A DNA stretch of 64,000 bases. Source: Streptantibioticus ferralitis. Its GTDB lineage: Bacteria > Actinomycetota > Actinomycetes > Streptomycetales > Streptomycetaceae. The DNA lies in contig NZ_JARHTQ010000001.1 in assembly GCF_029223525.1 (NCBI RefSeq), positions 558,001-622,000 of the forward strand, written 5' to 3'. A program made the translations under genes and the position numbers. Below, in pieces: positions 37,002 to 38,750 of the stretch; position 1 is the stretch's first letter, and each line of letters opens with the position of its first letter. A model generated the notes under the pieces. It made no database searches, was not told the origin of the DNA, and worked only from the letters and a program-made list of their open reading frames with translations.

Positions 37002-37796
37002 ATGGCCGACACCGTGCTCTACGAGGTGACCGAAGGGCTCGCGACCATCACCTTGAACCGGCCCGAGGCGATGAACGCCCTCAATACCGAGACCAAGGTC
37101 GCACTGCGGGACACCCTGCGGGAAGCGGGCGCGGACCAGTCCGTACGGGCGGTACTGCTCACGGCGACCGGGCGGGCGTTCTGCGTCGGCCAGGATCTCA
37201 AGGAGCATGTGAGCTCACTGCAGCAGCCGACCGCGGGCGGCAAGACGATGAGCACGGTCCACGAGCACTACAACCCGATCGTCACGGCGATCGCGACCAT
37301 GCCCAAGCCGGTCGTCGCCGGGGTCAACGGGGTCGCGGCGGGCGCGGGCGCGGGCTTCGCCTTCGCCGCCGACTACCGGGTGGTGGCGGACTCCGCCAGC
37401 TTCAACACGTCCTTCGCCGGGGTCGCGCTGACCGCGGACTCGGGAGCGTCCTGGACCCTGCCGCGCCTCATCGGCCCGGCGCGCGCCGCCGACCTGCTGA
37501 TGTTCCCGCGCACGATCGGCGCCCAGGAGGCGTTTGAACTGGGCGTCGCGCAGAAGGTGGTCCCGGCCGAGGAACTGGCCGCCACCGCACTGGCGGTGGC
37601 CCGCGAGCTGGCCCAGGGCCCGACGGTCGCCTACGCGGCGATCAAGGAGTCGCTCGCCTACGCGGCCGCCCACTCCCTGATCGAGACCCTGGCCAAGGAG
37701 GACGAGCTCCAGGAGCGGGCCGGAACCTCCGCGGACCACAAGATCGCGGTCGAGGCCTTCCTGAAGAAGGAGCGGCCCACGTACGTGGGCCGCTAG
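37002..37796 (+). CDS. Enoyl-CoA hydratase/isomerase family protein
   Basis: A 264-aa crotonase-fold enzyme. Seen: ITLNRPEAMNALNTE, the first oxyanion part AFCVGQDLKEH, and the second VNGVAAGAGAGFAFAADYRV. The family hydrates or isomerises enoyl-CoA esters in the cytosol; the GQDLKE string and absence of the usual catalytic Glu pair in the second motif (GASWTLPRLIGPARA has no Glu) point to a PaaG-like isomerase, an inference. ATG with GGAGGGG upstream; a CRP-like site lies in its promoter region. The stop codon directly abuts the long inverted repeat. Confidence 0.88.
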   Translation: MADTVLYEVTEGLATITLNRPEAMNALNTETKVALRDTLREAGADQSVRAVLLTATGRAFCVGQDLKEHVSSLQQPTAGGKTMSTVHEHYNPIVTAIATMPKPVVAGVNGVAAGAGAGFAFAADYRVVADSASFNTSFAGVALTADSGASWTLPRLIGPARAADLLMFPRTIGAQEAFELGVAQKVVPAEELAATALAVARELAQGPTVAYAAIKESLAYAAAHSLIETLAKEDELQERAGTSADHKIAVEAFLKKERPTYVGR

Positions 37797-38153
37797 CGGT
37801 TCGCCCGCGCTGGCGGTCAGCCGGTTTCCCTCCGGGGGGTTGTGGTTGCGGTGAGGGGAATTGCCCTCCCTCCCTCCCACCCGTTGGCGCGATCGTCTGG
37901 GCACCGTTGCGCGAGGCGGGTTCGTGGGTCGGGAACGTGCCGGGGTGTCCCCGCAGCGACCCCATGAAGCACCGTCACTGTGAACTCGAAGCTGGAGTGA
38001 GGAGACACCCCGGCGCGCCCCCGACCCCACGGCGGCCGTGCGCAACGGCAAGCTTGCGGACCCGGCATCGGGTGGGAGGGAGGGCAATTTCCCTCACCGC
38101 AACCACAACCGCACCCGGAGGGAAACCGGCTGGCCGCCGGCGCGGGCGAACCG
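37797..38153. repeat. Long imperfect inverted repeat filling a convergent intergenic region
   Basis: Left arm 37797-~37950 and right arm ~38002-38153 are reverse complements with high identity over ~150 bp each. Both begin CGGTTCGCCCGCGC/CGGTTCGCCCGCGCC and share GCCGGTTTCCCTCCGG, GGTTGTGGTTGCGGTGAGGG, ATTGCCCTCCCTCC, CCGTTGCGC and GCCGGGGTGTC, with small indels (an extra TCCC unit on the left, TGC on the right). About 50 nt in the centre are unpaired. The arms start exactly one base after the hydratase stop and one base before the tag stop. No ORF is supported inside. Confidence 0.9.
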
Positions 38154-38750
38154 TCAACGGGCGTGGCAGCCCAGCAGATGGTCGTTGACCAGCCCGCACG
38201 CTTGCATCAGGGCGTACGCCGTCGTGGGACCGACGAAGCGGAAGCCCCGCTTCTTGAGGTCCTTGGCCAGCGCGGTGGACTCCACCGTGGTGGCCGGCAC
38301 ATCCGCGATGGTGCGCGGCGCCGGGCGGCTGCCGGGATCCGGCGCGTAGGACCAGATCAGCGCGTCCAGACCGCCGCCGTAGGACTCCTCGACATCGAGG
38401 GCGGCGCGGGCGTTCGCTATGGCCGCGTCGATCTTGGCCCGGTTCCGGATGATTCCGGAATCGGCGAGCAGGCGCTCCCGGTCGGCGTCGGTGAACCTGG
38501 CGACCGTCTCCAGGTGGAAGTCCGCGAAGGCGGCACGGAACCCCTCCCGGCGGCGCAGGATGGTCAGCCAGGACAGACCGGACTGGAACGCCTCCAGGCA
38601 CAGCCGCTCGTACAGCTGGTCGCCGCCGTGCAGCGGACGTCCCCACTCGGCGTCGTGGTACGTCCGGTAGTCCTCGTAGCCGTCGGCGTCCCGCGCCCAG
38701 GGGCAGCGGAACAGCCCGTCGGCGCCCTTGATGGTCCCGCCCTCACTCAT
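38154..38750 (-). CDS. tag: DNA-3-methyladenine glycosylase I
   Basis: A 198-aa Tag enzyme that removes 3-methyladenine from alkylated DNA. Seen: FRCPWA near residue 14, YHDAEWGRPLHGGDQLYERL, the active-site region AFQSGLSWLTILRRREGFR, and the C-terminal zinc-binding HLLGCH. The zinc ligands expected from E. coli Tag (Cys near the start, His in YHDAEW, His and Cys at the end) are present. ATG; its first 8 nt overlap the DivIVA-like gene. The M. tuberculosis homologue (Rv1210) lies next to a similar small gene. Confidence 0.94.
   Translation of the reverse strand: MSEGGTIKGADGLFRCPWARDADGYEDYRTYHDAEWGRPLHGGDQLYERLCLEAFQSGLSWLTILRRREGFRAAFADFHLETVARFTDADRERLLADSGIIRNRAKIDAAIANARAALDVEESYGGGLDALIWSYAPDPGSRPAPRTIADVPATTVESTALAKDLKKRGFRFVGPTTAYALMQACGLVNDHLLGCHAR

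Follow-up and report, generated by a model that had tools for sequence, protein, structure and literature searches.

The 64,000-nucleotide stretch of the Streptantibioticus ferralitis genome analyzed here (the window) contains two convergent genes, echA and tag, whose stop codons are separated by nothing but a very long imperfect palindrome, raising the question of what this sequence is and how it came to lie there. The reading that we favor, with a probability of roughly 0.64, is that the palindrome arose in this lineage through insertion of a non-autonomous palindromic element, which is dispersed in the Streptomycetaceae and whose mobility and spread in trans we infer.

Palindrome between echA and tag

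The original prediction described an imperfect palindrome of about 357 bp filling the gap between two convergent stop codons, with arms that share long inverted blocks of identity, carry few indels, and start right after the stop of each gene, and our analysis bore out each of these points (Table 1). The last base of the echA stop codon (TAG) lies at 37796 and the first base of the tag stop codon (TCA on the forward strand) at 38154, and both ends of the palindrome abut these stops. Global alignment of the two halves of the 357 bp covered 166 columns, of which 143 were identical and 23 mismatched, with few indels, an identity far above the limit of about 60% that had been set for abandoning the prediction. 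The inverted-repeat blocks within the palindrome are 89%, 95%, 72%, and 83% identical, only two mismatches fall in the outer 40 bp of the arms, and the first 14 bp at each end, directly behind each stop codon, form a perfect inverted repeat. The folding energy of the palindrome is -297.9 kcal/mol, compared with -178.9 +/- 5.8 kcal/mol for 100 dinucleotide-shuffled sequences (z = -20.5), and in a palindrome scan of the whole window the echA/tag gap scored 154, the runner-up scoring 41. At 37771 to 37794, where echA ends and overlapping its stop, lies another inverted repeat, 12 bp long and free of mismatches (AGCGGCCCACGT/ACGTGGGCCGCT), which may represent a separate terminator-like hairpin.

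Table 1. Features of the palindromic element and its flanking genes (window coordinates)
Feature	Coordinates	Strand	Remarks
Whole palindromic element	37797..38153	.	86% arm identity; fold z -20.5; spans the gap between convergent stops
Host gene, enoyl-CoA hydratase/isomerase (echA)	37002..37796	+	Native C-terminus and stop kept; ECH_1 E = 1e-57 (Pfam)
Host gene tag, DNA-3-methyladenine glycosylase I	38154..38750	-	Native C-terminus and stop kept; methyladenine glycosylase E = 4e-68 (Pfam)
Left terminal inverted repeat CGGTTCGCCCGCGCTGGCGGTCAGCCGGTTTCCCTCCGGG	37797..37836	+	First 14 bp perfect against right end; matches Streptomyces cattleya-like terminal repeat
Right terminal inverted repeat	38114..38153	-	Same register behind tag stop codon
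G-quadruplex-type motif CCCTCCCTCCCTCCCACCC, left arm	37864..37882	-	Read from sequence; same motif type ends G129 elements
G-quadruplex-type motif GGGTGGGAGGGAGGG, right arm	38070..38084	+	Read from sequence
Left arm module CCGTTGGC...CACCGTTGCGCG	37881..37915	+	Pairs with 38037-38072; recurs in other copies
Right arm module CGTGCGCAACGGC...GGCATCGGG	38037..38072	+	Elsewhere part of a ~105-bp unit, tandem-repeatable
Conserved core hairpin	37931..38023	+	Match to covariance model R2, 98.8 bits
Invariant motif GTGTCCCCGCAG, 5' side of core internal loop	37945..37956	+	
Variable distal hairpin of core	37957..37998	+	
Invariant motif GAGGAGACAC, 3' side of core internal loop	37999..38008	+	

Copies elsewhere and their position relative to genes

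A search of the whole 8.8-Mb genome of S. ferralitis (G000) with the 357-bp query hit 75 times, at dozens of places, and the best of these matches covered query positions 141 to 308, the center of the palindrome, at 80 to 87% identity. A covariance model of the core hairpin found at least 17 copies in G000, all at non-homologous intergenic loci, at least 17 in G007 (presumably Streptomyces cattleya), six in G002, and one in G001. When 32 loci were compared all against all, only 75 to 740 bp of noncoding sequence was common per locus, and no gene was shared. The copies in G000 are mosaics, built from a fixed core hairpin, inverted arms, and one-sided, repeatable units of about 105 bp, and their ends differ from copy to copy. 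At the echA/tag junction itself, the palindrome is not present in any of the five relatives compared: the spacer there measures about -4 bp in G009, whose stops overlap, and 8 bp in G007; G002 has 43 bp containing an ordinary hairpin, G014 has 172 bp, and the 314 bp found in G001 are unrelated in sequence. The two checks proposed with the original prediction, for dispersed copies and for homologous junctions that lack the palindrome, were thereby both answered in the affirmative. Comparison with the orthologous junctions shows that the C-termini of both EchA and Tag are native, and the palindrome is therefore a clean addition between the two stops in the G000 lineage; part of its exact fit between them can be attributed to the shortness of the ancestral spacer.

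Diverged family copies were seen at two junctions in G002 (L112 and L119) orthologous to the sites of two G000 copies (L050 and L043), which is evidence of vertical inheritance and decay; since some copies are orthologous across species, part of the spread is old and vertical, a point against the favored reading. At two sites in G000 (L043 and L045), the upstream genes seem to terminate within the element (GGTTCCGGGTAA), giving the impression that insertion had replaced their 3' ends. A second, unrelated palindrome family, with the core CCTGGACGCTGACGTGTATTTGCGGGCC...GGCCCGTAAACATACGGTCCAGG, was noticed in G002 (L102, C52:486711-486843; L117, C107:253018-253150). It occupies junctions in G002 at which G000 carries the first family (L039 and L040), and it occurs in 13 of 249 genomes of the Streptomycetaceae and not in G000.

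None of the 91 distinct sites of the element overlaps a predicted gene, genes in the relatives having been called with a simple codon-usage predictor trained on the element loci. Convergent gene pairs account for 35 of these sites, compared with 79 of 416 background pairs (p = 1.5e-4), and divergent pairs for only five, compared with 84 of the 416 (p = 4e-4); single hairpins within tandem gene pairs show no strand bias (18 versus 16). In two species, hairpins flank the same alpha/beta-hydrolase gene (L206 in G134 and L207 in G126), and copies also lie near homologues of this gene in three further genomes. Either the copies have persisted for a long time at a single locus, or these genomes have a hot spot in common.

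The G007 copies follow a plan in which a terminal repeat (GGTTCGCTCGCGCTGGCGGTCAGCC) is followed by a hairpin, about 143 bp of sequence, an inverted hairpin, and the inverted terminal repeat. Several of these cattleya-like copies carry the identical terminal repeat at both ends, and the same repeat matches both ends of the window copy. Seven G007 ends follow a stop codon in precisely the same register, stop-NGGT-TCGC or a close variant (L056, L057, L165, L168, L169, L170, and L222, the L168 end coming from a looser search than the other six), and the window copy ends in this register on both sides, as TAG-CGGT-TCGC and TGA-CGGT-TCGC. Under a crude uniform model with 50 positions, the chance that seven of the approximately 14 gene-end-facing G007 ends would fall in register is about 4e-9. 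Orthologues of the gene at L056 in G000, G009, and other genomes have the same gene end with a spacer of more than 100 bp behind it, showing that the position of the element at L056 was not forced by a short spacer. The native stop was verified by orthologues at two loci, L056 and echA/tag. Overall, these observations point to a preference of the element for the stop-codon boundary, insertion followed by selection being the alternative.

Conserved hairpin core in the Streptomycetaceae

The core pattern, GTGYCCCCGCAG-N32-62-GAGGAGRYAC, is present in 33 of 396 Streptomycetaceae genomes; these carriers represent five genera, the richest of them has 59 exact copies, and the reversed pattern, used as a control, matched once in total across the same 396 genomes. 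When 395 genomes were sampled from the class Actinomycetes, all carriers were Streptomycetaceae, the pattern being absent from each of the approximately 355 genomes outside that family. The motifs on the loop side of the hairpin are fixed, and the distal stem is common to the copies within a genome and different between genomes, yet still complementary, as in the genome-specific halves GGAATGCGC/GCGCATTCC, CAAACTGCA/TGCAGTTTG, GGACTTCGAA/TTCGAAGTCC, among others. The two halves of the stem match at 7.8 of 10 positions within a genome, compared with 5.4 when swapped (0/10000 permutations). Within the Streptantibioticus-type core, covariation of paired positions exceeded that of every shuffle. 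At each of the three widths compared, an arm also paired more fully with its own partner than with a partner taken from a different copy (0, 4, and 0 of 2000 permutations). Covariation tests of this kind can be inflated by kinship of the sequences, but kinship offers no explanation for a stem that is replaced in full from one genome to the next. The structure of the core was taken from single folds, RNAalifold having given a poor structure on the first, gapped alignment of the core.

Outside the core, the family varies in its surroundings. Inverted ends terminating at GGGTGGGCGGGCGGGAAA bound the units in G129, and three of these units (L209, L210, and L211) have inverted ends of approximately 220 bp enclosing 0.6 to 0.8 kb of internal GC-rich tandem repeats, the elements ending in G-quadruplex-type motifs followed by A-runs. 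A strict G-quadruplex motif is not general, being mostly missing near the hairpin in the G046 and G050 copies. Hairpins adjoin other short repeats (AGGGGCGCGGGGAACTGCGCGA; AGCCCGGCCGGCGTTTGAGGCC) in G050 (L234-L243), G046 (L224-L233), and G360 (L208, L214, and L257-L261), which suggests composite repeat clusters. In open-access papers, we found no description of these sequences or of corresponding palindromic, interspersed, or non-autonomous repeats of Streptomyces, and no Rfam family scored above its gathering score at the element, the only hits being tRNAs in the flank and miRNA-model matches far below the gathering score. The element family is an apparently undescribed noncoding dispersed repeat of the Streptomycetaceae.

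Possible mobility, rival explanations, and related repeats

How could such copies have spread? A candidate trans-acting enzyme would recognize the folded hairpin, the terminal repeats, or both, favor sites at stop codons, and spread copies, which would persist where neither a gene nor a promoter is broken. The symmetry of the arms would be kept through hairpin-templated (template-switch) repair, as is suggested by the left outer arm of the window copy, whose best match is the right arm of that very copy (91.7% over 84 bp, 118 bits), the next relative scoring 54 bits. Lying between convergent genes, the element would, as a by-product, block transcription both ways and give rise to RNase III-sensitive duplex RNA; the two-way block and the RNase III cleavage are likely, because a stem of over 100 pairs confronts any transcript entering from echA or tag. 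A role as a terminator or source of duplex RNA is a possible by-product. More tentative, and in our view somewhat less probable than even, is the idea that the family represents a new class of non-autonomous bacterial mobile element, in which the trans-acting enzyme reads a folded hairpin with an invariant internal loop and a stem that has co-diversified with the host lineage, and inserts the element immediately 3' of stops, leaving both flanking proteins intact.

Several origins were considered and set aside. Chance or an ordinary terminator was rejected on the strength of the fold statistics together with the dispersed copies. Autonomous transposons were rejected: the hairpins lying about 1.8 kb apart in two genomes enclose the alpha/beta-hydrolase gene and no transposase, and another hairpin pair encloses a two-component system. 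A phage or plasmid origin was likewise rejected, the window element and one G046 copy having matched nothing in phage or plasmid collections; the Streptantibioticus-type core pattern did not occur in viral contigs.

Evidence against the favored insertion reading comes from the search for a mover, which found none: among the copies inspected, which are part of all copies, no gene family travels with the element or recurs consistently beside it. Nor is there a target-site duplication at the window junction, where no direct repeat was seen at TAG/CGGTTCGC...GCGAACCG/TCA, and the ends vary within G000, unlike those of a clean transposon. These points also bear on the MITE-like palindromic element put forward in the original prediction. 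It is the best supported of the three options given there, the others being an inverted duplication of the 3' flank of a gene and a very large bidirectional terminator, since the element is dispersed and missing from the junction in relatives, and like MITEs, it is noncoding, with internal palindromy and terminal inverted repeats (14 bp perfect; 40 bp with two mismatches); unlike MITEs, it showed no target-site duplication at the window junction and no partner transposase among the copies inspected, and its ends are variable within G000.

The most serious competitor, which we nevertheless consider unlikely, is that the palindrome is kept for an RNA function, as a strong, strand-symmetric terminator or stabilizer of mRNA 3' ends between convergent genes, which gene conversion has spread and selection has retained. 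The 3' location of the copies, their excess between convergent genes and scarcity at divergent promoters, the compensatory changes that preserve the hairpin, and the ordinary hairpins in the echA/tag spacer of relatives all agree with such a function, as do the many overlapping convergent transcripts and RNase III-bound mRNAs of Streptomyces (PMC3765725, PMC5775266). However, the family is patchy even among the Streptomycetaceae and missing from the echA/tag junction of relatives, and termination requires neither terminal repeats nor an internal loop that stays invariant while the stem changes freely. In addition, the G+C-rich hairpin with a U-tract that marks an intrinsic terminator is not found at the element ends, and the single match in a terminator scan is marginal and lies within an arm. 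Another proposal of the original prediction, an inverted duplication of the 3' flank of one gene, which we considered as a local event with symmetry kept by template switching, accounts for the closeness of the left outer arm to its own right arm, but other genera and more than 17 unrelated loci also contain the core and the right arm, making this origin highly improbable. An artefact of assembly or chance has a negligible probability: several G000 contig ends do fall within copies (C56, C13, C42, and C49), indicating that these repeats trouble assemblers, but the fold is far outside the shuffled range and the family is also present in the single-contig genomes G126, G134, and G099 and in the two-contig genome G007.

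Among known repeats, the MIRU of mycobacteria are intergenic repeats at TGA stop codons with variable tandem units; they are shorter direct repeats with small open reading frames and form no giant palindrome. Compared by description, the element resembles MIRU in its tandem units and in its placement at stop codons (seven G007 ends and both window ends). The BOX elements of Streptococcus pneumoniae have a modular structure. Again compared by description, BOX elements and the element described here are both modular intergenic repeats with variable module number and a stable RNA fold, although BOX elements belong to a different phylum (cf. PMC3049150). Like the bidirectional terminators and cutoRNAs of Streptomyces, the element lies between convergent genes and would yield duplex RNA, but cutoRNAs are overlapping transcripts of two genes, whereas the element is a repeat (PMC3765725, PMC5775266).

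The closest parallel is with REP/BIME sequences, whose features (the GTAG and CGTC superfamilies, movement by RAYT, and REP dimers) we took from a published survey (PMC3733652). Like them, the element family consists of dispersed, extragenic hairpins without coding capacity that often occur in inverted pairs and combine a fixed unpaired motif with a lineage-specific stem. It is nevertheless very unlikely that the family belongs to the GTAG- or CGTC-tagged REP/BIME superfamilies and is mobilized by a RAYT, the Y1 tyrosine transposase. No Y1_Tnp gene was found in G000, G001, G002, or G007, and of 14 further carriers 12 lacked it, while in the other two the hairpin does not flank the gene; no GTAG or CGTC tag is found at the foot of the window core (37926-37945); the units measure 350 to 600 bp, compared with 20 to 40 bp, making them 5 to 10 times larger; and the survey lists no Streptomyces or other Actinobacteria (PMC3733652). 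The terminal repeats and the position behind stop codons set the element further apart. It is thus kin to the short interspersed palindromic repeats in general kind, and a new mobility mechanism may be involved.

The family appears to be a lineage-wide repeat in a heavily studied, antibiotic-producing group of bacteria, for which no description was found in the papers searched. If the element is mobile, this implies an enzyme with structured DNA or RNA as its substrate and a choice of stop codons as sites, which would help to explain genome expansion and could serve as a gentle tool for insertion; if insertion at stop codons is true, the site would be a safe one that leaves the flanking proteins whole. 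If it is not mobile, the family would instead be a large structured RNA or DNA element that alters transcript ends at dozens of loci.
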